A DNA stretch of 51,339 nucleotides from Actinomycetes bacterium (GTDB lineage Bacteria > Actinomycetota > Acidimicrobiia > Acidimicrobiales > Acidimicrobiaceae). A program made the translations under genes and the position numbers. Where the stretch lies: contig JAJYGT010000077.1 in NCBI GenBank assembly GCA_021785005.1, positions 1 to 51,339 of the forward strand, in the 5' to 3' direction. Positions 17,070 to 44,655 of the stretch are shown here, piece by piece. The notes below the pieces were generated by a model. It was given only the letters and a program-made list of their open reading frames with translations. It did not search any database and was not told the origin of the DNA. Each line of letters starts with the position of its first letter. The stretch's first letter is position 1.

Positions 17070-17441
17070 CTAGATCTGAGAGACGTGAGCGCTTACAATT
17101 CGCCAGTCTCCACCAATTCGAACCCACGTCTGAGATTGGCGACCTCGACGAGCTTCCCCCGGATACGTAAATACTGTATTGACAACGGCAAACGCGTCCC
17201 CAAAAGTGACAATCTCAGTGTCTTGTAACGACCGACCCTCAGGTAGACCCGCCTGCGCCTCACGCCAAGCCGTAAGTTCTGTTATACCGTGTTGCTCGTC
17301 GGCAACTCCATAGCGAAGTGTGTACTTACTATCCCAAAACAACTCTCGCATGACGCTTAGGTCCCTATCAACAAGTGCTTTTTCATAGCGAGCAAATTTG
17401 TCAGAAACCTCAGTTAAAACCAATGGATTATTTATCTCCAT
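17070..17441 (-). CDS. AtzH/HpxZ-like NTF2-fold protein (DUF3225)
   Basis: The 123-aa protein has the features of the DUF3225 family that includes AtzH (acts on 1,3-dicarboxyurea in s-triazine catabolism) and HpxZ (oxalurate cluster): a start INxPxV, FxRYEKAL at about 16-23, LFWDSKYTLRYG near 33-44 and the C-terminal GRQSQTWVR plus WRIVSAHVS. These matches are from memory of the family. It is the last gene of the minus-strand operon, 7 bases after the amidase stop. In AtzE/AtzG/AtzH and HpxW-Z clusters a gene of this type follows an amidase of the same kind, which supports a role in ureide or dicarboxyurea processing. Cytoplasmic. A decayed paralogue lies at 14357-14455. Confidence 0.8.
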   Translation of the reverse strand: MEINNPLVLTEVSDKFARYEKALVDRDLSVMRELFWDSKYTLRYGVADEQHGITELTAWREAQAGLPEGRSLQDTEIVTFGDAFAVVNTVFTYPGEARRGRQSQTWVRIGGDWRIVSAHVSQI

Positions 17442-17448
17442 AATGCAC

Positions 17449-20369: not shown

Positions 20370-20384
20370 CTTGTCCGCCTTTTG

Positions 20385-21539
20385 TTAGGATTGTGGAAGG
20401 GTTCCGACTACGCCTTTGACCAAACACGAAAAGTTATTGATCTGGGCATAGGTTGGCGTTACGCCAGCTGGTACCAGAACAGAACCGTCTTGGCAATATA
20501 TTGGACCGGTAAACACGGACGATCCTGACTTTAATTTTGCTTCTTCGGCCAAAATCTTGGTAGACATGGTTGAAGTTACTGCGGGTCCAAATGGCGCCAA
20601 GGTAAGTGGATTGTTATTAGTAGCAAAAGTTCCCACCCAGTTCGTATTGTATATGCTGCCTGCAAAATGTCCACTTAGTACCGTCTTTATAATGTTGGTG
20701 TAGACGGGAGCCCAGTTCCAAACAGACCCAGTCAACCATCCACTTGGGTCCAATGAACTTGCGTCATAATGATACCCAACCACATAAGCGCCTGCAGCCT
20801 TGGCTGCTCCAATAACGGTTGCTTGGCAGTCTTGATGTTGAGTCAAGACGTCTACGCCTTGGGACAAAAGTGCAGTTGCTGCTTCTTTTTGCTTTAGCGG
20901 ATCACACCAGTTTGAGGTATTGACCACATAGGTTTTCGCATTTGGATTTACCGAAAGTGCTCCAAGTTCAAATGCATCGATGTTTTGAATTGTCTGTGGT
21001 ATCGGAAACGCATATACAAAGCCAAGTTTGTTGCTTTTTGTCACTGATCCCGCAGCCATTCCGCCTAGCGATACCGGCTCAAACGCCTCGCCCCAATAAG
21101 TGCCAAAGTTTGGCGGGAATTTACCAGCCAAATAACCGCCTTGATGCAATACGGTTATAGAAGGATGCGAGACAGCAAACTTCTCGGCATATGGGAAATA
21201 CCCATAGCTGGTCGCAAAAATGATTTTGGCGCCAGAATTCACCATCGCCTGCATCGTTTGAGTAACTGAATCATTTTCAGGAATGTTGTCGGCGGTAATT
21301 ACCTTGACGTTTGACATATCTTTGGCAACTGTTTGGCTGGCAACGTAAACTGCCTGGTTGTAACCGTAGTCGCTGCGAGACCCTACCATAATAAAACCGA
21401 CAGTTGTAGCTGGTGTAGCAGAAGCAGTAGTCGTACCCGAGGCCGAGCTCGAACTTCCACAACTCGCAAGTCCGATCATAGATATCGCACTTGCCCCGAC
21501 TAGTCCTACAATTTTACGGAGTTTTGACCCGATTCGCAT
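20385..21539 (-). CDS. BMP-type (PnrA-like) ABC transporter binding lipoprotein
   Basis: This 384-aa substrate-binding lipoprotein has a type II signal with the lipobox LASC at about 27-30, followed by a Ser-rich linker. The BMP/Med fold is seen in GFIMVGSRSDYGYNQAV, FATSYGYFPYAEKFA, GTYWGEAFEPVSLGG and TQHQDCQATVIGAAK. The ATG at 21539 has GGAG upstream; an in-frame start at 21593 would break the signal. BMP-family binding proteins usually take up nucleosides and purine-type compounds. Within this operon the ligand is probably a nitrogen-rich ring or ureide. It is separated from the permease gene by about 150 bases with a hairpin, which may raise its expression. Confidence 0.9.
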   Translation of the reverse strand: MRIGSKLRKIVGLVGASAISMIGLASCGSSSSASGTTTASATPATTVGFIMVGSRSDYGYNQAVYVASQTVAKDMSNVKVITADNIPENDSVTQTMQAMVNSGAKIIFATSYGYFPYAEKFAVSHPSITVLHQGGYLAGKFPPNFGTYWGEAFEPVSLGGMAAGSVTKSNKLGFVYAFPIPQTIQNIDAFELGALSVNPNAKTYVVNTSNWCDPLKQKEAATALLSQGVDVLTQHQDCQATVIGAAKAAGAYVVGYHYDASSLDPSGWLTGSVWNWAPVYTNIIKTVLSGHFAGSIYNTNWVGTFATNNNPLTLAPFGPAVTSTMSTKILAEEAKLKSGSSVFTGPIYCQDGSVLVPAGVTPTYAQINNFSCLVKGVVGTLPQS

Positions 21540-21636
21540 ATTTCTTTCTCCTCGTTTTTGGCCGTGAAAGGTCAGGGCTCTTAGATTTTTCATTGAAGTG
21601 TGGTCGTGTGACCGATAAGATGGTGGTGGTGGATTT

Positions 21637-21664
21637 GACCGATGTCCTTTTTTGGATGTCGGTC
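21637..21664 (-). terminator. Imperfect hairpin before the binding-protein gene
   Basis: An inverted repeat (gaccgatgtcc with ggatgtcggtc, two mismatches in the middle) around a six-base T loop lies between permease 2 and the binding protein gene in the same operon. It may act as an RNA-stability or attenuation element that allows the binding protein to be made at a different level. Weak evidence. Confidence 0.35.
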
Positions 21665-21686
21665 ATCTTCTTTTAGTTTCGGTGGT

Positions 21687-22598
21687 TTATGTTGTGTCTG
21701 TCAACGCCCGAGTAAGTGCTTCAGGCGCATTCGATCCCCCCTTCTTTGAAACTGCAATGAGAGCTATGAGAGTTGCCAGATAAGGCAAAGAATCTAACAA
21801 GTACTGATTCACAGCGATACCATGAGCCTGCAAAACTGAGGAGGCGGCTAAAACCACTCCAAAAAGATATGCGCCAACCATGACCCGAGCCGGTTTCCAT
21901 GAGGCAAATAAAACGACTGCTACTGCAATAAATCCGTATCCGCTGGTCATATCGTTAAACCAGTTTCCGACATAGCCCACAGACAACTGGGCACCTCCAA
22001 TGCCGGCAAGTCCAGCGCCAAGTGTCACTGCGATAAGTTGTACGAGTGCCGGGCGATTACCAGCAACTCCAACAACTTCAGGGCGCTCTCCAGTTGCTCG
22101 AAGTAAGAGGCCGAGTCGTGTTTTCTTCAAGATCACAACCAGCGCGACCACCAAAGCGTAACTGAGATAGACCAAAATATCGTGTTTGAATAAAATCGGG
22201 CCTATCCAAGGGATCTTGCTCAATCCCGGTATTGAAATTATCGTCAAAGGTGTGATTGAGTCATTTACATATCCAGTGCCAAACACCGAAGTGAGACCAA
22301 GTGCCAAAAACCAAACCACCAACCCACTGGCAAGCTGATCAGCTTTGCGATAAACCGACAAATAACTGTGTATTAGTCCAAAAAAAGCCCCAGCGGCAAT
22401 TCCACCCAAGATTCCAAGCAATGCAGAGCCCGTAGTAACGGCAACCGCATACGCCCCTAGCGCGCCGGCTAACATGCAACCCTCGGTGCCCAAGTTGATT
22501 ACACCCGAAAGTTCTCCAATCAACTCGCCGAGTGACGGCAATAATATCGCGGTACCGCCTTCTACTCCGCCAATAAGACTTTGTTCGATCCCGTTCAT
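21687..22598 (-). CDS. ABC transporter permease (nucleoside/BMP family), second subunit
   Basis: The 303-aa hydrophobic protein (about 8-10 helices) belongs to the BPD_transp_2 permease family (YufQ/RnsD type). Visible features: an N-terminal LPSLGELIGELSGVINLGTEG and a loop of type LRATGERPEVVGVAGNRPALVQ that contacts the ATPase. It overlaps the first permease gene by 4 bases. It forms a transport complex with the other permease, the two-domain ATPase and the BMP lipoprotein. Cargo inferred from neighbours as a ureide or nitrogen heterocycle. Confidence 0.9.
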   Translation of the reverse strand: MNGIEQSLIGGVEGGTAILLPSLGELIGELSGVINLGTEGCMLAGALGAYAVAVTTGSALLGILGGIAAGAFFGLIHSYLSVYRKADQLASGLVVWFLALGLTSVFGTGYVNDSITPLTIISIPGLSKIPWIGPILFKHDILVYLSYALVVALVVILKKTRLGLLLRATGERPEVVGVAGNRPALVQLIAVTLGAGLAGIGGAQLSVGYVGNWFNDMTSGYGFIAVAVVLFASWKPARVMVGAYLFGVVLAASSVLQAHGIAVNQYLLDSLPYLATLIALIAVSKKGGSNAPEALTRALTDTT

Positions 22599-23710
22599 TT
22601 GGCAGCTGCCTTTCTCGTTTTAGACAAGAACAGTGGGGCCATAACTATGAGCGCGAGCAGCACGTCAACAATTGACCCATCGAGTCCAAACCCCAACTGA
22701 ATACCATTGCCACTAAGCGCAATCGCAGAAAACACCAGCGACGCGACGACAACTTTGATCGGATCGTGTCTACCTAGCCAGCTTGCCAAAAACGCTACAT
22801 ATCCAAAGCTGGCGGTTATCCCTGGCACCAGCTGATATTCCAGACCGGCTAAATTAAGCATTCCCCCTAAACCTGCAAGAGAACCACCAACCAACATCGA
22901 TGAGATCAAAAGTTTGTTGATCGGAAGTCCAGCTCGCCTAGCGGCTTCTTGGTTTCCGCCTACTACCCGAAGCGCAAATCCCCAATGGCTCTTCCTAATT
23001 AAGTACCACGTAACAACAGCTAGTACCAGAGCAATGACAACACCCAAGTTGAGCTGACTCCCAAAGAGCGCCGGCAACTGCGCCGATTGAGCTAAGGGCT
23101 GACTTTGAGGTTGGCCAGAGCTGAATTTATCTCGCCAAGGCTGGTAAATAAGATAGAGCATGACATCGTTAGCAACAAAATTCATTAGTAAAGTCGTGAC
23201 CGCTTCGTTAGCGCCCATTTTGGTTCGTAGCACACCTGATATTCCGGCCCAAATAGCTCCAGCGATAGCCCCGGCTACAGCCATAGCAACCCATGCGATT
23301 GGCCCAGGCACACTAGCACCGATTGCGACTCCGATTCCAGTAGCGGCAACGGCTCCCATGATCAGTTGTCCCTCGCCTCCCACGTTTACAAGGCCAGCTC
23401 GTGCGGGAACAGCGACTGCCAATGCAGCAAGCGAGATAGGTACAGCGCGCAGAATTACCTGCTCTATCGAACCAACATTTAGAACCGAAGACTGAAGCAT
23501 CGCGCCAAAAACTCCGAATGGATTTGCACCGCGTGCGAGCGCAACCAGTCCAAACAGAAAAAATGAACCAATGTAAGTCAAGATCAACAAAAACGTCATA
23601 TTTGAAGACCGGTAAAGATTCGACCAGCTAAATTTCTTTTCGACCTCGTGGTTTACCAGGTCATCCAAAGGTGGATCTTGCTTGGGTGCTAGTGGCGAGA
23701 AAATACTCAC
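22595..23710 (-). CDS. ABC transporter permease (nucleoside/BMP family), first subunit
   Basis: The 371-aa integral membrane protein has about 8-10 helices after a polar N-terminal tail of roughly 35 residues. It carries the family signature PARAGLVNVGGEGQ, which is the YufP/RnsC type hallmark, and the coupling loop GNQEAARRAGLPINK. It overlaps both flanking genes by 4 bases (ATPase upstream, second permease downstream), the usual arrangement for a co-assembled transporter. Confidence 0.92.
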   Translation of the reverse strand: MSIFSPLAPKQDPPLDDLVNHEVEKKFSWSNLYRSSNMTFLLILTYIGSFFLFGLVALARGANPFGVFGAMLQSSVLNVGSIEQVILRAVPISLAALAVAVPARAGLVNVGGEGQLIMGAVAATGIGVAIGASVPGPIAWVAMAVAGAIAGAIWAGISGVLRTKMGANEAVTTLLMNFVANDVMLYLIYQPWRDKFSSGQPQSQPLAQSAQLPALFGSQLNLGVVIALVLAVVTWYLIRKSHWGFALRVVGGNQEAARRAGLPINKLLISSMLVGGSLAGLGGMLNLAGLEYQLVPGITASFGYVAFLASWLGRHDPIKVVVASLVFSAIALSGNGIQLGFGLDGSIVDVLLALIVMAPLFLSKTRKAAAK

Positions 23711-25272
23711 GAGGCCTCCTGTGTCATCAATCGGCCTATTTCAAGTCGATCGGTATTTTTCGCTTCGAGCAAGCCCGAAATACGACCATGAGAAATTACT
23801 GCTATTCGGTCAGATAATGACAAAAGTTCGTCGATGTCCTCGGAAATAAGGACAACCGCGGTCCCTTGTTTTCTCGCATCAATTAGTAATCCGTGTGTCA
23901 TCTCTGCGGTCCGAACATCTAAACCGCGCGTTGGATAAGACACCACCAAACCTTGGGAGGGATCAGCAAACGCCAGCGTCAGAATGACACGCTGAATATT
24001 TCCGCCAGATAATTGATCCAGCCGTTTTGAACTAGGAGCCAACGGAAGCCCGATTCGATCCGCTACCTGGTGTAACCACTTTGTCGCAGACCCAATATCA
24101 AAACGTAGCTTCTTAGAAGAAGTAGCGAGCCATAGCGCGGCGTGTTCAGCGACAGTGAGGCCTGGTACAACAAATTCTCGAATGGGGTCAGCTACGACAC
24201 CTAGCATTCCAGCCATGCGATAGTGCTTAGGTCCAGCAACAGTAAGTCGTTGACCTTTTAGTTCTATGTCTCCGCGGTCAGCCATTCGAGCACCTGTCAG
24301 CAGATCCGCCAACTCTCTTTGTCCGTTACCAGCTATACCCGCGATACCTAGAATCTCTCCTGACTTTACGTCAAAATCGACACCTTTTAAGCCAGTGCCC
24401 TCTCCGTGCGCTCTTAGCGTTAGATCAAGAGCTACCAGTGTTGATTGGCTGCTCGAACCCGAACCACGATCACTGTTTGTGATAGGGTTCACGAACTCGC
24501 CAACCATAGCTTTCACTAAATCGTCATTTGTAATATCTTGTGCTGGCAAATCACACAATATTTGTTTTCCACCTCGTAACACGCTCACTCGATCAGCGAT
24601 TGCCCGAACCTCTCGCAACTTATGCGTGATAATTACAATGCCCACTCCGTCATTCTTGAGACGTCGAATAATATCAAAAAGTGCGTCTACCTCTTGGGGT
24701 GCCAAAACGCTGGTTGGTTCGTCAAGTATTAGAACCTTTGCCCCGGCCAAAAGAACTTTGATAAGTTCTACCCTTTGCCATTCACCAATCGATAGATCTC
24801 CTACCTTCGCATTTGGATCAACTGCAAGGCCATAGCGTTGTGACGCTTGATCGATCAACTCGCAAATGTTGTTCTTACGCAGAATTTTGCCGCCCAATTT
24901 CGTATGAAGCGCGACATTCTCCCATACCGTCAGCGCAGGAATTAAGCGTAAGTCTTGAAACACCATGCCAAGACCAAGGTTTCTGGCAATGGCTGGTGAA
25001 TCTATATTGACCACTTTGCCCATGAAGGTTATCGACCCAGAATCTGCCTTTTGAATCCCGTAGAGAATCTTCATAAGCGTGCTTTTGCCCGCCCCGTTCT
25101 CACCTAAAAGCGCATGCACTTCTCCAGCTTTTAGCGTGAAACTCACATCGTGATTTGCTCGAAGGGTGCCAAAAGTTTTGCATATCTTAAAGACCTCCAA
25201 CAAATTCTTCGTCGAATCTAATTTTGCATCCTGTTCCAATCGCGTCAGATCTATTTCGGCGCTATCTACCAT
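23707..25272 (-). CDS. Two-domain ABC transporter ATPase (nucleoside/BMP family)
   Basis: The 521-aa protein has two nucleotide-binding domains in tandem, as in RbsA and YufO types. The first domain has Walker A GENGAGKST, the signature LSIGEWQRVELIK and Walker B LILDEPT. The second has the degenerate P-loop GIAGNGQRE typical of this family and LSGGNIQRV. It overlaps the regulator gene upstream by 7 bases and the permease downstream by 4. Energises import of the substrate recognised by the BMP lipoprotein. Confidence 0.93.
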   Translation of the reverse strand: MVDSAEIDLTRLEQDAKLDSTKNLLEVFKICKTFGTLRANHDVSFTLKAGEVHALLGENGAGKSTLMKILYGIQKADSGSITFMGKVVNIDSPAIARNLGLGMVFQDLRLIPALTVWENVALHTKLGGKILRKNNICELIDQASQRYGLAVDPNAKVGDLSIGEWQRVELIKVLLAGAKVLILDEPTSVLAPQEVDALFDIIRRLKNDGVGIVIITHKLREVRAIADRVSVLRGGKQILCDLPAQDITNDDLVKAMVGEFVNPITNSDRGSGSSSQSTLVALDLTLRAHGEGTGLKGVDFDVKSGEILGIAGIAGNGQRELADLLTGARMADRGDIELKGQRLTVAGPKHYRMAGMLGVVADPIREFVVPGLTVAEHAALWLATSSKKLRFDIGSATKWLHQVADRIGLPLAPSSKRLDQLSGGNIQRVILTLAFADPSQGLVVSYPTRGLDVRTAEMTHGLLIDARKQGTAVVLISEDIDELLSLSDRIAVISHGRISGLLEAKNTDRLEIGRLMTQEAS

Positions 25273-25979
25273 ATTGATTCCCCCTCAACATATCCAGCAT
25301 TTAGCATTCGTTCAAACGACTTGAATGACGATGCTTCAACTACAGCTTGAGATTGAAGAATGTGACGCTCCAAAAGTGTTTCCGCTTGCTCGATCTCAGC
25401 GGCGATAACTGCACTAACAATTGCCAGGTGTTGGTCTATTGTTGCGCTCACGCGCCCACTAGCAACAAAATCATGTGTTCTCACTGGTCGAATCCGCTCA
25501 TTTATTCGTCTAAGTTCCTCGGCTAGTTGTTTATTGCCTGCTGATTCAGCTAGGCGCCCGTGAAAGTCTTCATCAAGCAAAACAAACTCTGGATCTGTCG
25601 GAAAATAATCTTCTTGCAAACCCAGCCATTCGTCTTTGAGGGTGTTGAGCATTTTCAGGTCTCTATCCCCGGCCATCGAGATTGTACGACGCAAAGCAAA
25701 TAATTCAAGGGCGCGCCGTACCTCATATAATTCCCGAATCAATGTGGAACTTGGGATGGCTACTCGGTAGCCTCCTTCGATGTGTCGGTCAAGGAAACGT
25801 TCGGCGTGTAAACGTAGCAAGGCTTCTCGCACTGGAGTTCTTGAAACCCCGATTCGTTCAGCGATCTTTTCCTCACGAAGGCGAACCCCCGCGGGAACTT
25901 CACCCATTAAAATCCACGATTTCAATTGTTGATAGGCTAGTGAGCTGGCTGTATACGCTCTTGTATCCATAGAGTCCAT
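25266..25979 (-). CDS. FCD-domain GntR regulator of the first N-acquisition operon
   Basis: The 237-aa protein has a winged helix-turn-helix at about 10-75 (LREEKIAERIGVSRTPVREALLRL) and a helical FCD ligand-binding domain at about 85-225 with Asp/His residues of the metal site (DEDFHGRLAE; H189 in DQHLAIVSAV; H207 in LLERHI). It is the first gene of the operon and overlaps the ATPase, so autoregulation and control of the whole operon are likely. FCD regulators of FadR type usually respond to the pathway's small acid or its product. A 6-bp perfect inverted repeat with a 3-base centre (26119-26133), about 150 bases upstream, could be part of an operator. Confidence 0.88.
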   Translation of the reverse strand: MDSMDTRAYTASSLAYQQLKSWILMGEVPAGVRLREEKIAERIGVSRTPVREALLRLHAERFLDRHIEGGYRVAIPSSTLIRELYEVRRALELFALRRTISMAGDRDLKMLNTLKDEWLGLQEDYFPTDPEFVLLDEDFHGRLAESAGNKQLAEELRRINERIRPVRTHDFVASGRVSATIDQHLAIVSAVIAAEIEQAETLLERHILQSQAVVEASSFKSFERMLNAGYVEGESIW

Positions 25980-32725: not shown

Positions 32726-34081
32726 TCAAGAAAGTACGCGAGATGCAGTATCTGTAGGTTCGACTTGCTCACCGTGGATCGCAAGATCACCAATCTCAAG
32801 AATGTCATCGCTAAAGCGTAGAGGCGTAATCAGCTTGACGATATGCAACAAGATGTACGTTCCTATTGCGCTATAGCCAATAATCCAGAGTCCTCCGAAC
32901 AACTGCAACACCACCTGCCATGGATGTCCGTAAAAGAGACCTTTGACAGAAACGTCTGATGCTTTACCGATTCCAAGATAGACAATCATCTTAGGATCAG
33001 CAAACAGACCAGTCATAATACCACCCAAAAGTCCTGCAACACCGTGGGTGTGGATAACTCCTAGTGCATCGTCGACCTTCGCAAAGATCCATTTTTGCGA
33101 GAGCTTATTGAAGGAGAACCATACAACGAACGAACCGATGGCACCGATCGCGATAGCACCCCATCCATTGACATAACCTGCAGCAGGAGTAATTCCTACG
33201 AGTCCAACGATCATACCGTTGACGGCGCCAAGGAACGTGGATTTCTTATGCTTAGACAGAAGGTCCATGATAACCCAAGTCATCAAAGCTACCGCAGTTG
33301 CAACGTTGGTGTTGAGCACAGCTGACGCTGCGTCCGCACCGGCAAAGTAGGGGTCACCACCATTGAAACCATTCCAACCGAGCCACAGGATGCCAGCTCC
33401 GACAGCCACTAACAACAGGTTCGTTGGAGCAGCTTGTTCCCTGTCTTTCTTTAGTCGTGGTCCAATGACGGCCGCAGCTACGAAGCCCGTGACGCCTGCC
33501 GACAAGTGGATGACATAGCCTCCCGAGTAGTCAACAACGCCTTTAGCAGAGAAGTAGCCTCCACCCCAAAGCAAGAAGGCGTTGATAGAATAAACAAACG
33601 TTGTCCACAATGGCACGAACAAGAGCCATGCCTTTATGCTCATACGTCCAAGAACGCTGCCCAGGAAAAGTAGCGGCGTAATTGCAGCAAACACAAACTG
33701 AAAATAAATAAGAGCCGAGTTAGGAAAGCGAAACTTAGGCATGAACCCGGCGCCGCTTACCAACGGAATGTTTGCCTGCAACTGCTCACCAAAGTGATCA
33801 AGTACAGGTCCGGGATGACCGACAAACTGTCCTAATATGCCAGGTCCAAAATTGACCGGCGTTCCAAATCCCATTTTGAAAGCCCAAAGGACCCACACTA
33901 TCAAAACAGAGGCGAATGCCGTAAAAGCCATGGTCATGGTGTTCACGACCCACTTTTTATGGACAAGTCCTCCGTAGAATACTGCGATCCCTGGAATACT
34001 CATGAGCCCAACTAGTGTCGCAGCTACGAGCTGCCAGGTGTTATCCCCTGGACTAAGCCACGACGGGTAGGGTATTAGCAT
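32726..34081 (-). CDS. amt: Ammonium transporter (Amt family)
   Basis: Imports ammonium across the membrane as a trimer. I place the start at ATG 34081 because AGGAGG (34092-34097) lies 10 bases before it; the frame opens at 34216 but the extra N-terminus is unlikely. Eleven helices are expected, and the family motifs are seen: FYGGLVHKK, STALIYFQFVFAAITPLLF-type helix, GGYVIHLSAGVTGF with the pore histidine, GWNGFNGGDPYFAG and THGVAGLLGGIMTGLFAD with the second pore histidine. A GlnR-like motif lies upstream at 34136-34162. The PII gene is divergent, 950 bases away. Confidence 0.96.
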   Translation of the reverse strand: MLIPYPSWLSPGDNTWQLVAATLVGLMSIPGIAVFYGGLVHKKWVVNTMTMAFTAFASVLIVWVLWAFKMGFGTPVNFGPGILGQFVGHPGPVLDHFGEQLQANIPLVSGAGFMPKFRFPNSALIYFQFVFAAITPLLFLGSVLGRMSIKAWLLFVPLWTTFVYSINAFLLWGGGYFSAKGVVDYSGGYVIHLSAGVTGFVAAAVIGPRLKKDREQAAPTNLLLVAVGAGILWLGWNGFNGGDPYFAGADAASAVLNTNVATAVALMTWVIMDLLSKHKKSTFLGAVNGMIVGLVGITPAAGYVNGWGAIAIGAIGSFVVWFSFNKLSQKWIFAKVDDALGVIHTHGVAGLLGGIMTGLFADPKMIVYLGIGKASDVSVKGLFYGHPWQVVLQLFGGLWIIGYSAIGTYILLHIVKLITPLRFSDDILEIGDLAIHGEQVEPTDTASRVLS

Positions 34082-34135
34082 TAAACTGAAACCTCCTGGT
34101 AGATCAATCTCGAGGTCCAACGTTATAAACCGAGT

Positions 34136-34162
34136 GTTTCGAACCTGTGTCGGCTTTGTTAC
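34136..34162 (-). promoter_or_regulatory. GlnR-like operator near amt
   Basis: On the minus strand the sequence reads GTAAC, 6 bases, GACAC, 6 bases, GAAAC. Actinobacterial GlnR binds GTnAC-n6-GAAAC arrays with 11-base periodicity, so three half-sites are in register. It lies about 55-80 bases upstream of the amt start. Match by eye only. Confidence 0.45.
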
Positions 34163-34780
34163 AGCGATGTTAATCCGATAAGACGATGCTGAGAACCCCG
34201 AGCGATCAAAGCTCAACTACCTGGGATAACGGCGTCCAAGATGATTTATAGACCCGTTATTTAATTTTCGAGGGTCGCTACAAACAACACGGGACAACCA
34301 CAGTTTGACCAACGTCGATGCGACTTCAGTATCGAAACCTTGAAAGCGTGCCAACAAAAATGGACATCCCTCCAATTTAATAAAAACAGCGGCGCGGTGC
34401 AAGAATCGCGCGATTGTTTACTCCACGGTCTAAGGAGATGCTAAAACAGAGAAATGGCTCGATTTGCAAACGCCCAGCCACGTAAAAACAGCAGCTTTCA
34501 ATCAGAGGCAACTTCAATGATTGTTTCACTTTTGTTTGCAATTCTCGTCGCGCCTGGTAAAAACGAACTTATAACGTATTGGAGATCGATCAATGCGCTA
34601 GACGCACCCAACGCTTTTAAATTTATAAATATCGGGGTCGAAACCGGGATTTGACATTTTTATCGATATGTCAAGACATTTTATTGGGTGCTACCTAGCC
34701 TGTGACTAGGGTGATTGTGTTACCCAACTCGTCGCGACCCAATCACGATCCAGAGGGTGAATTTGCTCGTGCCAGACCGC

Positions 34781-34992: not shown

Positions 34993-35367
<375 letters not shown>

Positions 35368-35566: not shown

Positions 35567-36205
35567 TTACGAAAGAGATTGGCGCTCGCCATGATCGCGC
35601 AGAGCGTCAAGCACTAGGGCTACATCACCTTTTTCAATGCTTTCGAGCAGCACCCGATGGCGTTTTACCCCATTCTCATAATCACCAGCAACTTCGGTTT
35701 CGGTCCGCAGATTGTCAGACATACAAAGCTGCATCTTATCCATGAGACCAATATAAGTCTCAACTAAAAGTGCGTGGTTTGCCATGCTGATAAGCGCAAC
35801 ATGGAAGTCGCGATTCGATCGCACAATTTCAGCGTGATCCGAGCGCTTGGCCGCATCTGCCATGTCACCAAGTGCTTTACGCATCATCTCGATGCTCTCT
35901 GGATTCGGTCGTGGGAACGCTTTTATGGCCGCGAAATTTTCGAGTGCTTCACGGAGCGAATAAATCTCATTTACCTCTTTTGCGCTGAGACTTACCACCC
36001 GGGAACCTTTCCTCGGTGCTTGCTCCACGATTCCTCGCTGCGCCAATTCCCTTAGCGCTTCACGCAGTGGTGGACGACTAACACCCAACGCAGCACTCAA
36101 TTCATTTTCCCTGAGCTTTTCGCCAGGTTTATAAACACCGGTATGGATCAAGCGTTGAATCTCAGCGACGGCCAAATCAACTAGGCTTCGTTGTTCTATT
36201 CGCAC
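35567..36205 (-). CDS. FCD-domain GntR regulator at the end of the second N cluster
   Basis: The 212-aa protein has a winged helix-turn-helix (LRENELSAALGVSRPPLREALRELA, about 33-57) and an FCD domain with metal-site residues (DFHVALISMAN, KRHRVLLESIEKGD, RDHGERQS). It lies 170 bases downstream of the uricase-like gene. A G/C-rich 6-bp hairpin (36228-36245) occurs just upstream of its start. It probably regulates the uricase-like/amidohydrolase/transporter genes, responding to an acid intermediate. It is not closely identical to the other GntR protein in this window. Confidence 0.85.
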   Translation of the reverse strand: MRIEQRSLVDLAVAEIQRLIHTGVYKPGEKLRENELSAALGVSRPPLREALRELAQRGIVEQAPRKGSRVVSLSAKEVNEIYSLREALENFAAIKAFPRPNPESIEMMRKALGDMADAAKRSDHAEIVRSNRDFHVALISMANHALLVETYIGLMDKMQLCMSDNLRTETEVAGDYENGVKRHRVLLESIEKGDVALVLDALRDHGERQSLS

Positions 36206-36374
36206 GCCTTTATTCCTCCAGCTCGTCGGGGAGATAAAACTCCCCTTCAGTTGACGTTAATCGAATACAATATACCTTTCGAGCATACATCCGTCGTAGT
36301 TATCGCTAGTTTCCAACTAAGCGCCCAAAATTAAATCCAGTACAACCGTTACGATAGTGCCCTCGTGACTCTCT

Positions 36375-37238
36375 TTATACGATCCGCTTGAGGCTTACTT
36401 CGCTAATTCCAATCGGTGAGACTATAATTGAGTACATTGAGCGATCATCACTCTCCTCGCCTCGAGCGCTCTCTACTACACCAACTGGCGTTGAATGAAA
36501 AGTCAGCGAAATCTCTCGCAGTTCCTGCTTTTCTGAAAGCAATTGGCTTGCTACGTGATATAGATTCTCTTGTGCTGAACGCGAGTTTACGGTTGAAAAT
36601 AACTCAATTAGGTCGCGTCGCACTGCTTTGTGTAAATAATTACTGTCGGTTGGTTGTGACACGTAGTCCCATGCAGCTTCGAGCCGCCCAGCAAGGATAC
36701 GATCGGGGCTGTCGGATTGTCTGGTCAATCCGTCACGCAAGAAGCCAGAAAAACTAGATCCTGACGATCTCATTATATTTATCTCGCAACCGGCACCAAA
36801 ATTCCTTATGCCGTTTACGTCACACCTGACATGAGTTTCAAATGGACTTTTTCGTCTTATTAGCGAACCCGATACAGACCCTTTTTCACGGGTCCAAAAC
36901 TGTTCACGCGTGACAGCGTTCCCCAGTTTGGCCGCTGGCATCGCATGTAAAATTTGTTCAATCAACACCAAAGCAAATTCACTTGGGTCTCTATAACCCT
37001 GAGTTTGTATCAGCACGTACGCATGTTGTCGCATAGTATCAGTCGGTAATATCAAAGAATTATCTCCATGGAGATATACGTCTTCGAAATCACCTTCAAA
37101 ATAGAGATCGACTTCAAGCTCAACAAATTCATGGCCTTCTCGTTTTATCAGCACCTTGAAATCTGTTTTTCCATAGCCGTTTGAGATAACTTGCAAGTTT
37201 TTATTTTCCAACGCTTTGCCTCTCGCGACGTCAACCAA
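36375..37238 (-). CDS. Uricase-superfamily protein with altered oxygen site
   Basis: 287 aa, starting at TTG. T-fold uricase features are clear: GYGKTDFKVL with Lys24, GDN...PTDT with Thr66-Asp67, SGSSFSGFLRDG with Phe163, PDRIL with Arg180, and the AQENLYH region with Gln223. These correspond to the urate-stacking Phe, the Arg and Gln that grip the 2,4-dioxo ring edge, and the Lys-Thr catalytic dyad. The C-terminal PNKHH motif, which holds the Asn and His of the dioxygen and proton-relay site, is replaced by residues near 248-252 (HSTPV). So urate-like binding is likely but normal urate oxidation is doubtful. It lies between the ring-opening amidohydrolase and the GntR regulator, suggesting action on a related cyclic ureide. 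Confidence 0.85.
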   Translation of the reverse strand: MVDVARGKALENKNLQVISNGYGKTDFKVLIKREGHEFVELEVDLYFEGDFEDVYLHGDNSLILPTDTMRQHAYVLIQTQGYRDPSEFALVLIEQILHAMPAAKLGNAVTREQFWTREKGSVSGSLIRRKSPFETHVRCDVNGIRNFGAGCEINIMRSSGSSFSGFLRDGLTRQSDSPDRILAGRLEAAWDYVSQPTDSNYLHKAVRRDLIELFSTVNSRSAQENLYHVASQLLSEKQELREISLTFHSTPVGVVESARGEESDDRSMYSIIVSPIGISEVSLKRIV

Positions 37239-37381
37239 ACGTTATGATGCCATCCAAAGCATCTATGTGTAGCCTTATTGAACAATAACTAGGAACCCTT
37301 GGCGCGACCGGACAACCTTTGTGCTCGGTCAATGTCTCGTCGTTTAGCTCATAGTCTCAGTTGCTAGGATAACCTAAAAAC

Positions 37382-38539
37382 TTATTTGTGCACAATCGCG
37401 CAAATCGGATTTCCATTGGGTGGTCCCATATGTGAATTCGCTTCGCCACCAGATATAAACGCCATCGTCAATCCGGTCACCGACGTGACGACTGCCCCGC
37501 CAACTGCCTTGGCAACGTGATGAGCTTCATGATCATCTAACAACGTGACTCTTGCTCCGCCTAGTTCAGGAGATCCAGGTAGCGTAAACTTTCCGAACAC
37601 TTGGGCTATCCGTGATTTTTGCTCATCGCTCGGACAACAGTCAAACTCCAGCCCCGCCGAGCGCAACGCATTCTTGATGCCATCCGATTGACCTAGCGCG
37701 GTTGTAATTCCGTGTCCCGCCCGGAGTTGACTAAGTGAATCCGGCCTGTTGGCCAGGACTAATACTTCGCCTTTTTGTTTCTCTCCTCCTGAACTTGTAG
37801 CTGCAACATTGCTGTAGAGATTCCAGTCGTGGCGAATCACCTGGTCTGAGATTGCTCCTCGATCAATCTCACCCATCGCGACCCCAACACCTAGTGCCAT
37901 GGCATCATTAGAATAACACATCGAACCCATAGGTCCAATCCCAGGATCTTTCGTGACTGGTTCAATTCCACTTTTTATCAAATTCGTAATTGATTCTGCA
38001 CTAAGTGCAGGTCCTTTTACGATCACCATATGAACCTGGGAAAGTTCCGTCACCCCGGCATCATCTAAAGCCCGTCTTACCGCATCTACCGTTGCGTCTA
38101 CTTGCGCTACACGTCCCACATGTTGGGGCAAAATATTGGTTGTATGGCTTCTCCCTAATACCAATCCGGGTCCAAAATTGGATAGCCCTTCGTGAGTTCG
38201 TGCATCAACCCACCTTTGCGTCAGTACCGTGGCATGCGGTGCGACAGTCCCAGGAGCTCCTCCCGACATTGCCATGGTAACCTCTTCAGCCACAGCTTCT
38301 GGAGTTTGACCCCTTAGTTTAGCCAACAGGCGCCGAATCTCTAAATCTGCCAGTAGACGTCCATAATCGTTTGGCAGTCCGCTTCCTTCAGACTTCCCGA
38401 CGACCGCAACAACTGTGTGTGGGTCCACTTTCTTTTCGGTAAATAGACGCTCGATTTCACTCGTATCTGCTGGAGTCCTCATGGGACACACGAACAATTC
38501 AGCCAAGGGAACAAGCCTCTCACGGTTACTTTTACTCAA
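37382..38539 (-). CDS. Ring-opening amidohydrolase (cyanuric acid hydrolase/barbiturase family)
   Basis: With the TTG start at 38539 (AAGGAG 5 bases upstream) the product is 385 aa; an ATG at 38599 would add 20 residues without a good ribosome site. Three repeated Ser-Lys sites typical of AtzD/barbiturase are visible: Lys49 (VVGKSEGSG) with Ser92 (MSGGAPG), Lys175 (IVKGPAL) with Ser250 (ATSSGGE), and probably Lys317 with Ser363 (ISGGEANSHMGPPNG). Their spacing closely follows AtzD. Such enzymes hydrolyse cyanuric acid to carboxybiuret or barbiturate to ureidomalonate; sequence alone does not tell me which. It follows the amidase gene by about 95 bases from this start. The pathway use of the neighbouring uricase-like protein is unknown. 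Confidence 0.88.
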   Translation of the reverse strand: MSKSNRERLVPLAELFVCPMRTPADTSEIERLFTEKKVDPHTVVAVVGKSEGSGLPNDYGRLLADLEIRRLLAKLRGQTPEAVAEEVTMAMSGGAPGTVAPHATVLTQRWVDARTHEGLSNFGPGLVLGRSHTTNILPQHVGRVAQVDATVDAVRRALDDAGVTELSQVHMVIVKGPALSAESITNLIKSGIEPVTKDPGIGPMGSMCYSNDAMALGVGVAMGEIDRGAISDQVIRHDWNLYSNVAATSSGGEKQKGEVLVLANRPDSLSQLRAGHGITTALGQSDGIKNALRSAGLEFDCCPSDEQKSRIAQVFGKFTLPGSPELGGARVTLLDDHEAHHVAKAVGGAVVTSVTGLTMAFISGGEANSHMGPPNGNPICAIVHK

Positions 38540-38634
38540 ATTATCTCCTTGTTGAACTTGCGAGCAGAAGGTATAGCCCGTCTGACTTGCGAATAACATT
38601 TACTATTTTGGTCGCACCATAAGTCACTGTGTGT

Positions 38635-40080
38635 TCAAAGTCCGCTTATCGGCTGCCATCCTCCCGATAAACTTTCTATCCGTCGTGCGAGCGCTAACGC
38701 CAAATCTTCACGAAACGGCGGGGCCACGATTTGGACCGAAAGCGGCAGACCATTGGCTGTTTTTGCTACCGGGATAGAGACAACTGGAACTCCTAATAGC
38801 GAAATTGCCCGGCAATGAGCCATCAACTCAAAACCCGCAACAGTTATCCCGTTGATGCACGCGGTTTCATCATGGCCAATCGCACCACAACCAGCGACGG
38901 GCAAAAGGAAAAGCGGAGTAACCCTCAGTTGTTCACGACCGACTTCACGTTGATGGAGATAGGTTTCTTTTGCTAGCACATAACCATCTCTGGAACGTGG
39001 AGGTTTTGTCAACAATGCGTAAGATGCTCTTGATAGTTCGGACTCACGTCCATGTGCTAATTCACGCAAATCATACAATTGCTCATAGCCACGCAAATCA
39101 TCAAACGCCTCACGTGCTCCCGCGAATGCATCGCCGAAGTACTTGAGGTTCAAGCCATCGTCAGTCAAAGTTTTTGAAAGCTCCAGCATCATAGCTTTTA
39201 CGTCGTCACCAACCACACCGATATTCGACCCGTCGCTCCAACCGATTGTCACCGCAGACAAATCAGTGTCCAAGGTGTCAGTTGAGGTTTTAGATAGCGA
39301 CCGCGTACCGGCCGTAGCTTGTCTTGCTGCTGATACCACGTTCTCTAAATCGTTTACACTTCGGGCGAGAAATCCAGGCACCTGGATGGCCGCTTGAAAC
39401 GAATCTGCTGCAAGCTGCGACGCTCCGTCAATTCCTTGACGAGCAGTACCCACTAATTGACCAACACCCGAAATGAGCCCCGGTGTCGGTCGCAGCCCAA
39501 GTATTCCAGTACATTGTGCCGGCCAGCGTATTGAACCACCAAAGTCGGTACCAACCCCGACCAAACTTATGCCCACCGCAACGCTAACGGCATCGCCACC
39601 ACTTGAACCCCCTGGAGACAAGTTCTGTCCCCACGGACTCAGAGTGGTTCCGTACAAGTCATTGGAAGTAGAAATTCCGAAAGCAAACTCAGGACAATTT
39701 GTCTTACCTACAAACATAACGCCCGCTTCGCGCAACTTCAAAACAACGCCCGCATCAATTGCAGACCGATTGTCTTTCAATAGACGACTTCCAGCACTTA
39801 AGCCCATTCCTGCAACAGCGATAACATCTTTTACCGTTGTTGGTACCCCAAGCAAACGAGACGTGTCACCAGCGTCAAGTCGACGCTGAACCTCGCTTGA
39901 GACCGCAGACAATTCGTTTTGAGTTGGTTGTGCGACTAAAGCATTTAGGTGCTGGAATTGTTCAGCCCGCTTAGTGGAATGCTCGAGTACTTCATCAACA
40001 CTAATAATTCGATCTCGCAGAGCACTATTAGTCGTAGATGCGTCCCAATATTCGATTGACTTTTCATATGTTAATTTCAT
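38635..40080 (-). CDS. Amidase-signature hydrolase in the amidohydrolase operon
   Basis: 481 aa with the Ser-cisSer-Lys triad: Lys84 (TVKD), Ser160 in GGSSGGD (158-163), and Ser183 in GTDFGGSIRWPA (178-189), all intact. No C-terminal allophanate hydrolase domain follows. It overlaps the TauE/SafE gene by 4 bases and precedes the ring-opening amidohydrolase. It probably acts on the linear product of ring opening (ureidomalonate-, carboxybiuret- or allophanate-like). Unlike the amidase of the first cluster, its oxyanion loop is canonical. Cytoplasmic. Confidence 0.88.
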   Translation of the reverse strand: MKLTYEKSIEYWDASTTNSALRDRIISVDEVLEHSTKRAEQFQHLNALVAQPTQNELSAVSSEVQRRLDAGDTSRLLGVPTTVKDVIAVAGMGLSAGSRLLKDNRSAIDAGVVLKLREAGVMFVGKTNCPEFAFGISTSNDLYGTTLSPWGQNLSPGGSSGGDAVSVAVGISLVGVGTDFGGSIRWPAQCTGILGLRPTPGLISGVGQLVGTARQGIDGASQLAADSFQAAIQVPGFLARSVNDLENVVSAARQATAGTRSLSKTSTDTLDTDLSAVTIGWSDGSNIGVVGDDVKAMMLELSKTLTDDGLNLKYFGDAFAGAREAFDDLRGYEQLYDLRELAHGRESELSRASYALLTKPPRSRDGYVLAKETYLHQREVGREQLRVTPLFLLPVAGCGAIGHDETACINGITVAGFELMAHCRAISLLGVPVVSIPVAKTANGLPLSVQIVAPPFREDLALALARRIESLSGGWQPISGL

Positions 40081-40985
40081 CGTAGGAAAAAACTCAATTC
40101 AGAAACACCGTAAATAAGTGCCACTATGGACAAGACTGTGGCTGCACTTAATCTAAAAAGCTTGTCGGTTACTTTCATTGCCAGCCGCGCACCGAAATAC
40201 GCACCCGGAATCGTACCGATAGTAAGTAGCGTTGACACCGTCCAATTTATATCACCGATAAACGAATGCGCGATAATACTTGGAACTGCCAATATCCCAA
40301 CGCAAACTAAAGAGGTTGCTGTAGATTCCCTAACCGTTAGACCAAGGCGATGTACAAAAAGCGGAACTAAAACAATTCCACCTCCAAGGCCAAGCATTCC
40401 AGAAATCAAACCCGCTAAAATTCCAATTGACCCCGTACGAATCATCTCGCGTAGCTCTAGGCGCTTCCCTACGCCAACGACCACCTCTCGTCGCGCCATG
40501 AAATCTTTTGGCGGCTCCTCCACGTACCTGTAAGCGTCAGGCAAGTCGCCTACTGTCTCACCCTCCTCGGTAATCATTGGAAGATCCCAGTTCTTAGGAT
40601 CTCTATGTACGGCAGTCTTTGGAGCCCTGCCGAGGCGTACGGCATTTATCATTAAGATTGTCGCGGTTATAAGCATGATCAGATGGCCATTCCCGGGCAA
40701 ACTATGGGAAAAGAAACTCCCTAGTACAGCGGCAACCACTCCGGGAATTGTTACAACCCATACGAGGTGGTACCTTATTAGTTTCTGCCCCCGGTAATGG
40801 AACATTCCTGTGATTACTCCTGGAAGCACCGATGGCAAAGTTGTGCCTATCGCTGACAACGCTGAAATACCGAGTGCGCGAATCGCCGGAGTAGAAAGAG
40901 CACCCCCGCCGATGCCAAACGAAGTCGACAACGCACCAGCTGCTACACCGACGATCACAAAAAGGATCGTCATGGTAATACTCAT
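40077..40985 (-). CDS. TauE/SafE family membrane exporter
   Basis: 302 aa with about 8 helices arranged as two repeats (GxGGGALSTPA near 25-35 and GLGGGIVLVPLFVHR near 197-211 are the family glycine signatures), and a polar central loop (about 120-175). The family exports sulfite, organosulfonates or small anions. It overlaps both neighbours by 4 bases. Its place between an ABC importer and hydrolases suggests efflux or uptake of an acidic substrate or product (for example a dicarboxylate). No direct evidence for sulfur chemistry here. Confidence 0.88.
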   Translation of the reverse strand: MSITMTILFVIVGVAAGALSTSFGIGGGALSTPAIRALGISALSAIGTTLPSVLPGVITGMFHYRGQKLIRYHLVWVVTIPGVVAAVLGSFFSHSLPGNGHLIMLITATILMINAVRLGRAPKTAVHRDPKNWDLPMITEEGETVGDLPDAYRYVEEPPKDFMARREVVVGVGKRLELREMIRTGSIGILAGLISGMLGLGGGIVLVPLFVHRLGLTVRESTATSLVCVGILAVPSIIAHSFIGDINWTVSTLLTIGTIPGAYFGARLAMKVTDKLFRLSAATVLSIVALIYGVSELSFFLR

Positions 40986-42598
40986 GAAATTGCCAATTTT
41001 CTTCGAAGCGTTCTCTCAAGTGTGTTCACACCAAAGTAAAATGTCAAAGACACCGCCACAACGACTGCAATCGAAGCCCAAAGATTTCCGAAATTGCTTC
41101 CAATTACGTCATAAGCCATCGCATGACCTATACCTGAGTCACTTACCAGCCATTCGGCAAGCACCGCTCCAAGTATTGCACCAGGCATTGAGATTTTGGC
41201 GGCGGTAAAAATTGCTGGCATTCCGTACATTGATTGCACTCGCACCAGCGTTTGGAGCTTTGTCCCACCGATTGAAGCTATCAAATCCAATGCAGTTTTA
41301 GGTGCCGATTTCAACCCATCAGAAATTGTAACCAGGGACGGGACGACCGTCACTAGAGCTGCGATAATTGTAATGCCAAGTAGTCCCCGACCAAAAAGTA
41401 GCGCGATCAATGGAGTCATCGCTACCAATGGCACCGAACGCACCACCAGAACCAAAGGCATAATCGCACGGTTTGCGCGAGGAAACAACAAAAGCAATAC
41501 TGCCCCAATTGCGGCGAAAATTGTGCCAACAATCCAACCGGTACCTGCGTGAAAAAGCGTGGTCAAAATCGTCGAAATGACAGCACTTCTATTTGACGAC
41601 GCGGTCGGAGAACTAAATAGGTACTGCCACACCGCCAACGGAGTTTTGAGAAAATACCCACCCAGCCCGCTCGCGTGGACAAGTAAATCCCAAATAACCA
41701 TAGAAAGTCCGATACCTACAACAACCCTAAACTTGTTTATAAGTCCTTGACGTAAACTTTGTTTGGCATTTGAAGTGGTCGCAGATGGGAAATCTGTTCC
41801 AGTCGAAGGTCCGGCTCCAAAAATTTTAGTGAGCCACAAAGTTATCGCATATGCAGCGCTCGAGACAACCGTTGTAACAAGTGCGATAGCCCAAGTACGA
41901 CTAACAGAGAGTTGTTGCTGAGCTTGTAGCATTACAACGCCGAGGCCGCTTTGCCCACCAAAATAGTCCCCAATCACGGCACCAAGTATGGAAGCTGGCG
42001 CAGAGATACAAAGCCCACTTGCGATACTCGGTACGCTCGCACGAAGCCTAACTCGTCGTAGTATCTGCATTTTCCCGGCCCCAAAGGCCTGAGCCATTTC
42101 CAGACTCGTACGTGACGCGGCTCGTAAGCCAGCAACGCCAGCTATCAGAGTTACAAAAAACACTGAAAGGGCCGACATGGTTACTTTGGCATCATAAGGG
42201 GACTGCATAATAAAAAGAATCGGACCAATTGCAACGGTTGGAACCGCGTAGGTCATTACACCAAACGAAAGCAATGAACTTTCAAGTCTTGGACTAAATA
42301 ACACCAGCATCGCAAGCGTGATAGCGAGAACGTTGCCGATAAGCCATCCTGGCGCTGCTTCTCCCAAGGTGCTCAGCAGATCAGAACCATAAAAATGATC
42401 ATTCCACGCAGTCGACAGGATACTAGTTGGAGTGGGTAGCACAAATCGATGTCGAAATATAGTCACTGCCAGTAGCTCCCAAACCACAAGCAATGCAATG
42501 ATCAACGCAATTTGAACAGACCAGTCTCGCAGCCTAAAACGTTGAAACAATCTCTTACGATCTAACAGATTTGTTTTCATATCTTGCACGACAGTCAA
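40982..42598 (-). CDS. Fused double ABC permease (SsuC/ThiX type)
   Basis: 538 aa containing two BPD_transp_1 permease domains in one chain, about 1-265 and 280-538. Each has the coupling EAA-type loop: [22 protein letters not shown] near 168-188, and [22 protein letters not shown] near 445-466. Normally two separate or identical subunits form the channel; here they are fused. It overlaps the ATPase gene by 4 bases. The partner binding protein is NMT1-like, a family that takes up pyrimidines, thiamine precursors, sulfonates or nitrate. Substrate inferred to be a small nitrogen ring. Confidence 0.9.
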
Positions 42599-43437
42599 AT
42601 TTCTTCTTCTGCGTCTTCGTTGGCAAACAACACGCTACTCAACTTGTCGCAAATATCGTGAAACTCGGGTGAGCGAAGGAGCTCTGCACTTCTTGGTCGT
42701 TCAAACGGAACCTTGAGGTGAGTCACTACTTTTCCGGGTCGTGGGCTTAGAACATAGATGTCATCGGCGAGAAATACTGCCTCTCCAATCGAGTGTGTGA
42801 CCAGCAATGTCGTGGCGCTACGTTCGGTCCAAATTCGCTGCAATTCAATGTTCATCTTTCGACGCGTCATTTCGTCTAATGCGCCAAAAGGCTCGTCTAA
42901 CAACAAAACGTGCGGCTCAATAGCAAGGGCACGCGCTATCGCTACTCTCTGACGCATACCCCCGGAGAGTTCCGCCGGTAGAGCTTTTGAAAAGTTCTTA
43001 AGACCTACCAAATTGATCAACTCTTGCACGACAGATTTTTCAACGCGCCTGCCAGCAATTTCAATCGGTAAACATATGTTTGCCTCGACCGTTTTCCAAG
43101 GTAGAAGAGCAGCCTCTTGAAAGGCTACTCCCAGGTGGTGAGCCAACCTTGCCTCCCGAGGATGTTCGCCATGAATCAATATCTCGCCCGAAGTTGGCGT
43201 ATCAAGATCAGCCATCATACGCAAAACCGTAGATTTGCCACACCCCGACGGGCCTAACAATGCGGTAAAGCTTCCACGGGCAGATGCAATATTTACGTCA
43301 CTTAAGGCCTCCACTGTCTTATTCCGACTCTTGTAGAGTTTGGAGACACTTTGGAGAAATAGACCGTCGTTTCGGCGTTTAGCTTGCGCATCAACTTCGG
43401 GGTCCTTGAACATCGTCGAGATGGCCTCTACGTTCAT
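42595..43437 (-). CDS. ABC transporter ATPase (SsuB/TauB type)
   Basis: 280 aa. Walker [11 protein letters not shown]-loop region [15 protein letters not shown], signature [15 protein letters not shown], Walker [16 protein letters not shown] and the switch His in THSIGEAV are intact. An N-terminal extension of about 25 residues precedes the domain. Typical of nitrate/sulfonate/taurine/pyrimidine-precursor importers. Overlaps the binding-protein gene and permease gene by 4 bases each. Confidence 0.94.
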
Positions 43438-44603
43438 GCCTTGTTCCCACCCTTATAAATGTCAGCAAGAATTTCGTTCGTAAACATTGATGGAGTCGCC
43501 ACCACGTTTCCAATCGCGAGAGACTTGATGGTGCCTGCCACCAACTCAGGTGTCATCCAGAACAGTCCGTGTTTTTGGGTATCTGCATCACTTACAAATT
43601 GATTTTGCTCTTGTGCATCGAGTTTTTGTTGCTCGGGATCCAGCTTTAGGTTCTTTCCATATTTGGTGACCGCAAGAGTAGCTGCCTCATCAGGATTTAC
43701 CAGCACATCACTCCAACCTAAGGATTCACCAGTCATAACTCCTATAATCTGCTTGCGCTTGACCGGGTCATTGAGATCTGAACCCTTGGCGATATAGATA
43801 TCTTCCATCATTGGATAGTTGAAGTCGTTCAGCAAAAATGCATAGGTATCCACACCTTTTAGTTTCAACACGATAGGCTCGTTGGTATAAAATGCCATAA
43901 GTCCATCGATCTCACCGGTAGCCAACGGCGTTGGATCAAAACCGACCGTTACTACATCCATCTGGCTAGCAGTCATGTTGTTGGCCTTTAGGAACGATTG
44001 CCAGATCGGTTCATTAGATGCGCTGATCCCAATTTTTTTACCGATCATATCTTGAGGTGTTTTGATTGGAGCACTGGCGCGCGACGCAATGCAGGTTGGG
44101 CTCTTTTGGAAACCAGCGCCGATGATCTTCAGGTCGGCACCATTAATGATCGCTTGAATAGCTTCAGCCGTATGGGTAATTCCCACAATTGCCCCGCCCG
44201 AAACAACGATAGGCTCAGGAGCAAGATTGGGACCACCTGGCAACAAAGTCACGTTAAGACCTTGCTGGCGATAATAACCCTTGGACTCTGCAAAGAAACT
44301 ACCAGCAAATTGAACGTTCTCGAGATAAACCAATTGAAGGTTGACATCGGTTAGCGCTGCGGCGGTGGTCGCAGTACTGACCGACGAGCCCGATCCGCAA
44401 GCTGCCAGTATTTCGGGAACTGCGCCGACCAACGCCGCGGCTCCAACGAACTTGGCGCCTTTACGAAAGAGCGACCGACGGGAAAACGGCTTGGACAGTT
44501 CCCCAAGCAGCCTATCATTAGTGTTCTCAACAGCATTGGCTTGCATTGCTCCCTGAGAATCATTTTGTGCCAGAGTCGAAATTTCCGTGATTTTCCCGGA
44601 CAA
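43434..44603 (-). CDS. NMT1/SsuA-like substrate-binding lipoprotein with Tat-type signal
   Basis: 389 aa. A long polar N-region is followed by SRRSLFR (41-47), a twin-arginine type motif, a hydrophobic core and the lipobox LAAC (66-69). The mature part has the NMT1/THI5-like pattern ([22 protein letters not shown] and GVTLLPGG-like loop, [15 protein letters not shown]). The family binds thiamine pyrimidine, riboflavin, sulfonates or nitrate. First gene of the operon; TTG start with AAAGGAG upstream. It captures the substrate for the fused permease and ATPase. Tat export with lipidation suggests cofactor-like folding or high demand; the ligand is unproven. Confidence 0.92.
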
Positions 44604-44655
44604 AGAAAGCTCCTTTGAGTTAAGTATTTTGTAGACAATACGTTATCAGCGTAAA

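Follow-up and report, generated by a model that had tools for sequence, protein, structure and literature searches.

A candidate cyclic-ureide scavenging operon joins a class V cyclic amide hydrolase to an amidase and a diverged uricase-family protein in actinobacteria

Introduction

Oxidative pyrimidine catabolism (uracil dehydrogenase, barbiturase and ureidomalonase) combines a Toblerone-fold ring opener with a subsequent amide hydrolase, and in this barbiturase–ureidomalonase logic it is the amide hydrolase that releases urea. The cyanuric acid pathway (AtzD, AtzE/BiuH and AtzF) also pairs a ring opener with an amidase-signature hydrolase. Related to both openers is class V (group V) of the cyclic amide hydrolases, represented by the Frankia structures 5HY0, 5HY2 and 5HY4; the Frankia enzyme reportedly showed no activity on cyanurate or barbiturate. 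The same lack of activity on both compounds has been described for AZC_3203, a group V enzyme from Azorhizobium (PMC3758960). Cofactor-independent urate oxidases (PF01014, TIGR03383) act on a different ring, above which Asn254 and Thr57 hold O2 or water, while His256 bonds Lys10 (PMC7792999). Our literature search found no publication naming barbiturase or cyanuric acid hydrolase together with uricase.

Here we describe an operon from an Acidimicrobiaceae assembly (GCA_021785005.1, contig JAJYGT010000077.1), of which a stretch of 51,339 nucleotides, hereafter the window, was analysed. We give roughly even odds to the proposal that this is a nitrogen-scavenging operon controlled by a GntR/FCD protein, in which a class V ring opener works with an amidase and urease, and with a uricase-like protein as an accessory.

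Results

Operon organization

ORF calls and domain profiles place eight genes on the minus strand in the order solute-binding protein, ATPase, fused permease, TauE, amidase, ring-opening hydrolase, uricase-like protein and GntR (Table 1), with the respective families NMT1, ABC_tran, two BPD_transp_1 domains, TauE, Amidase, Amido_AtzD_TrzD, Uricase and GntR/FCD. Both this order and the overlap or near-overlap of the first five genes had been put forward in the original prediction, and both were confirmed, the latter as 4-bp overlaps at the four junctions from solute-binding protein/ATPase to TauE/amidase. The hydrolase probably starts at a TTG codon at 38539, behind AAGGAG, rather than at 38599, which leaves a gap of ~95 bp after the amidase; the residue numbers given below for this enzyme follow the longer ORF starting at 38599. 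Gaps of 143 bp and ~170 bp separate the hydrolase from the uricase-like gene and the latter from the GntR gene. Promoter and terminator scans gave results no better than shuffles.

Table 1 Genes of the operon and its candidate operator, in window coordinates
Feature	Position	Strand	Evidence
NMT1/THI5-like solute-binding lipoprotein, importer	43434..44603	-	PF09084 132.7 bits
ABC transporter ATPase	42595..43437	-	PF00005 114.8 bits
Fused two-domain ABC permease	40982..42598	-	PF00528, two stretches
TauE/SafE exporter, proposed export of leftover carboxylic acid	40077..40985	-	PF01925 141 bits
Amidase-signature hydrolase, proposed ureido-acid hydrolase releasing urea	38635..40080	-	PF01425 230.8 bits; triad K84-S160-S183
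Class V cyclic amide (ring-opening) hydrolase	37382..38539	-	PF09663 360 bits; 5hy0 452 bits; tree and site table
Diverged uricase-family protein	36375..37238	-	PF01014 73 bits; TIGR03383 129 bits; motif table and tree
GntR/FCD regulator, probable regulator of operon	35567..36205	-	PF00392 and PF07729
Palindrome TTGTCTACAA, candidate GntR operator	44629..44638	-	25-35 bp upstream of importer gene; conserved

Conservation of the gene order

The hydrolase and the uricase-like gene have the same distribution in a set of 41 related genomes: six carry both, none carries only one, and the two are adjacent in five. In the remaining carrier, G009, they are on two contigs, each ~290-310 bp from a contig end, as would be expected from a contig break between them. 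A scan of 84,980 species yielded ten loci and, once duplicates were merged, the window and the other loci amounted to 11 distinct ones. Carriers are mainly metagenome-assembled actinobacteria, but also include Frankia sp. AgB1.9 and Lacisediminihabitans profunda. Since the identical order recurs in other assemblies, it is not a product of chance, and the adjacency that the prediction had proposed to check does extend beyond this strain.

Wherever a locus extends far enough to show the order, the importer stands ahead of the hydrolase, which bears out the idea of a dedicated importer. The amidase accompanies the hydrolase, directly or at a short distance, in 10 of the 11 class V loci, and it also adjoins the hydrolase in three more distant loci. 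The uricase-like gene is found in eight of the 11, one of them with a contig break between it and the hydrolase; in the L027 locus it is rearranged, standing divergently upstream of the importer beside a urease cluster. TauE, the amidase and the uricase-like gene are each absent from some loci, and in those of Frankia and Lacisediminihabitans an SBF-like transporter replaces TauE. A plasmid collection queried with the hydrolase and the uricase-like protein held no close relatives of either, only ~35%-identical hydrolases and canonical-looking uricases.

The ring opener belongs to class V

The ring opener is 56% identical to Frankia 5HY0 (452 bits), with far lower scores against barbiturase 5hwe (178 bits) and cyanurate hydrolases (133-219 bits). 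In our phylogenetic analysis it falls in a clade with 5HY0 (98/99), apart from cyanuric acid hydrolases (CAH) and barbiturase. Its three Ser-Lys dyads are intact (K69/S112, K195/S269 and K337/S383), and the equivalents of Arg54 and Glu237 are R81 and E273. The specificity sites, taken for AtzD and barbiturase from PMC3758960, carry a mixed signature, barbiturase-like at Asn231/Lys364 and CAH-like at Gly384-Gly385. Of the CAH signature (Arg195/Thr321/Arg325/Gly345/Gly346) only the Gly-Gly pair is shared, N231 and K364 standing in place of Arg, and the NF052395 score of 284 bits is below the cut-off of 360. The barbiturase (class VI) signature (Asn195/His321/Lys325/Val345) is shared at Asn and Lys, whereas Val345 is replaced by Gly and two residues are deleted in the 321 region. 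Judged by the tree and the active-site signature, the ring opener is thus not a cyanurate hydrolase or barbiturase, as which the gene had originally been read; instead, by sequence, the enzyme is a member of class V, the orphan class of 5HY0, with which it shares its active-site signature.

In barbiturase, Val is reported to encroach on the space of the active site (PMC3758960); Gly in its place would leave room, which suggests that the class V site has space for a C5 substituent. As the Asn231/Lys364/Gly384-Gly385 signature is identical in all core members, including those from loci without the uricase-like gene, a single substrate for the whole class is also suggested. The Frankia AgB1.9 enzyme is nearly identical to 5HY0, and its locus shares the importer, hydrolase and GntR genes with the window; unlike the window, it has no uricase-like gene, and no amidase could be located on the Frankia contig. 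On another contig of the window's genome, a paralogous operon (L014, G000:C128, 2427-13517) contains an NMT1-type importer, a very diverged class V-like opener (32%), an isochorismatase, an MBL hydrolase, an allantoinase-like enzyme just below cut-off and an FmdA-like amidase.

Genomic setting and the cyanurate or barbiturate alternative

A second ureide operon lies 10 kb away (17070-25979, minus strand), comprising GntR, a BMP-type ABC importer, a biuret amidohydrolase (NF050097 506 bits, cut-off 370, with a ~236-aa N-terminal extension), an AtzE-type amidase and an HpxZ/AtzH-like protein. Between the two operons are an ammonium transporter (32726-34216, minus strand) and a PII regulator (35029-35367, plus strand). 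This neighbourhood fits nitrogen scavenging.

The biuret hydrolase operon could also speak for known-type catabolism of cyanurate or barbiturate, in which the uricase-like gene would be irrelevant. The ring opener comes from the same enzyme family, and a route from barbiturate through ureidomalonate to urea would agree with the urease genes described below. We nonetheless regard this explanation as quite unlikely. The active site resembles neither that of CAH (Arg195 to Asn, Arg325 to Lys) nor that of barbiturase (Gly-Gly against Val-Ser/Ala/Gly), and AZC_3203 showed no activity on either substrate. The operon differs from the cyanuric acid pathway in its urease linkage and in having no allophanate hydrolase. 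A cyanurate route feeding the window's biuret hydrolase is further weakened by three carriers (G001, G007 and G009) in which a close biuret hydrolase (BiuH) is absent.

Amidase and urease point to urea

The amidase belongs to the amidase signature family, and its Lys-cisSer-Ser triad (K84, S160 and S183) is invariant in the window and ten relatives. In three loci the operon borders directly on urease genes, accessory or structural: ureF-G-D in L025, closely followed by ureC and ureB within the same G001 run; a ureC to ureD cluster in L027; and ureB and ureC following the amidase in L029. In the window's genome, urease is encoded on a different contig (C78) and does not adjoin the operon. All six carriers among the related genomes have urease alpha, compared with 10 of the 25 family genomes, a pattern with a probability of ~0.001 by chance, uncorrected for relatedness. 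We infer that the amidase product is urea. The predicted ring opening and amide hydrolysis on the way to ammonia gain support through the urease linkage. Nitrogen most likely leaves as urea and not directly as ammonia.

By analogy, the core is best read as a route from ring to ureido acid to urea to ammonia, which would resemble oxidative pyrimidine catabolism, where urea is likewise expected. The operon differs from that pathway in having a class V rather than a class VI opener and no molybdenum hydroxylase, and in its additional NMT1-type importer, TauE/SBF exporter and uricase-like accessory. An arylmalonate-decarboxylase match beside the Frankia locus, weak and just below the cut-off, would fit a substituted malonate product. 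In a more distant locus (L093, 5048-11063), a class V-type hydrolase and an amidase stand next to a molybdenum hydroxylase, as in oxidative pyrimidine catabolism; molybdenum hydroxylases are common among carriers and uninformative. Class VI barbiturase genes in L098, L099 and L103 adjoin an amino-acid-kinase family gene resembling carbamate kinase.

Importer and regulation

The nearest solved structures to the solute-binding protein are 3ix1, a pyrimidine (formylaminopyrimidine) binding protein, and 4nmy, both weak matches at 45 bits. The palindrome TTGTCTACAA stands upstream of the importer gene in nearly all loci: the window, L011/L024, L012/L025, L013/L030, L026, L027 and L028 (twice). L022 has TTGTATACAA at this place and L029 only an imperfect form. 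In the Frankia locus, where the palindrome is present twice, it lies in the interval that separates the SBF-like gene from the importer. Within the window it occurs once, against 0.10 expected. In L013 and L026 it falls a little way into the ORF as called mechanically, and the true start of the importer there is probably further downstream. GntR/FCD proteins have operators that such a palindrome fits, which makes TTGTCTACAA a candidate operator of the operon and the GntR/FCD protein its probable regulator. A search of the genomes with TTGTCTACAA for further regulon members left only matches at background level.

A uricase-fold protein with a lost oxygen site

The structure model of the uricase-like protein (pLDDT 81.6) finds its best PDB match in urate oxidase 7f2v (TM 0.80). 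The ligand site of urate oxidase (Lys10-Thr57, Phe159, Arg176 and Gln228) is present as K24, T66, F163, R180 and Q223, with D67 also kept; the equivalents of Lys10, Asp58, Phe159, Arg176 and Gln228 do not vary among the operon copies, and that of Thr57 is either Thr or Ser. In contrast to urate oxidase, Asn254 is replaced by Ser or Ala and His256 by Pro or Gly in all seven operon copies of the alignment as well as in that of G009, whereas Asn-x-His is retained in all 14 other homologues spanning the site. The operon copies also form one separate clade (99/99), and the window protein scores below the TIGR03383 equivalog cut-off of 168.4 bits. The loss of Asn254 and His256 makes urate oxidation unlikely. 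These proteins are probably not urate oxidases, and from the retained residues they are likely to bind a urate-like or uracil-like ring. The proposed uricase relative thus stands as a homologue, but hardly as a urate-oxidizing step, and its gene is missing from three of the 11 loci, which marks it as an add-on rather than an integral part of the core.

An alternative would have the uricase-like enzyme convert imported urate to 5-hydroxyisourate or a closely related compound, the class V hydrolase open the six-membered ring in place of HIU hydrolase, and the amidase and urease follow. It draws on the adjacency of the two genes in most loci, on the conserved ligand clamp and on a gap that the class V enzyme could fill, as neither HIU hydrolase nor OHCU decarboxylase was found in any of the eight metagenome-assembled (MAG) carriers tested. 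These are 65-96% complete where stated, which makes single absences weak evidence, but not the eight combined. We still consider the urate route unlikely, because both Asn254 and His256 are lost in every operon copy read, and because Frankia and Lacisediminihabitans have the operon without the uricase-like gene and encode a uricase of the canonical type, together with HIU hydrolase and OHCU decarboxylase, at other places in the genome. The L022 MAG, which is small and may be incomplete, has the operon and no uricase homologue that we could find. This distribution argues that the operon lies outside the known urate route, and that the uricase-like gene is dispensable for the core.

With the core pathway unchanged, the uricase-like protein could instead be a non-catalytic ligand binder or the product of a passenger gene that contributes no step. 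Its dN/dS of ~0.2, compared with ~0.04-0.1 for the hydrolase, together with the loss of two catalytic-site residues and the absence from three loci, would agree with this. The same dN/dS is well below 1, so the gene is under purifying selection, looser than that on the hydrolase; moreover, besides the ligand clamp the protein retains counterparts of Lys10, Thr/Ser57 and Asp58, and the gene stays beside the operon after the L027 rearrangement. We rate this reading, too, as unlikely.

Discussion

Taken as a whole, the original prediction is partly supported. In the pathway that we propose, the ABC importer would take up a barbiturate-like cyclic ureide with a C5 group larger than that of barbiturate. 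Based on homology and intact residues, the class V hydrolase would form a Ser-Lys acyl-enzyme (S269/K195) and so open the imide ring, giving a ureido-carboxylic acid, which the amidase-signature enzyme would convert to urea and a malonate-type acid. Going by their linkage, urease would then turn urea into ammonia, and the TauE or SBF-like transporter would export the carbon skeleton. The uricase-family accessory may bind a related ring, either urate-like or a 5,6-substituted uracil, and convert it, without O2-dependent urate oxidation (for example by hydration, hydrolysis or tautomerisation), into a compound that the core can use. This role is the weakest step of the proposal, and catalysis by the protein is only putative. 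A new catabolic route for a natural cyclic ureide, in which a uricase-fold enzyme without its oxygen site performs a non-oxidative step ahead of the class V opener, the amidase and urease, is a tentative reading.

Class V ring openers, with crystal structures and no known substrate, are now placed in a conserved gene context. The importer, amidase, urease, exporter and operator narrow the class V reaction to that of a urea-yielding ureide, and show which enzymes to pair. In the uricase-fold clade, where the ligand site is kept and the oxygen site lost, it would become directly testable how this fold evolves a new reaction.
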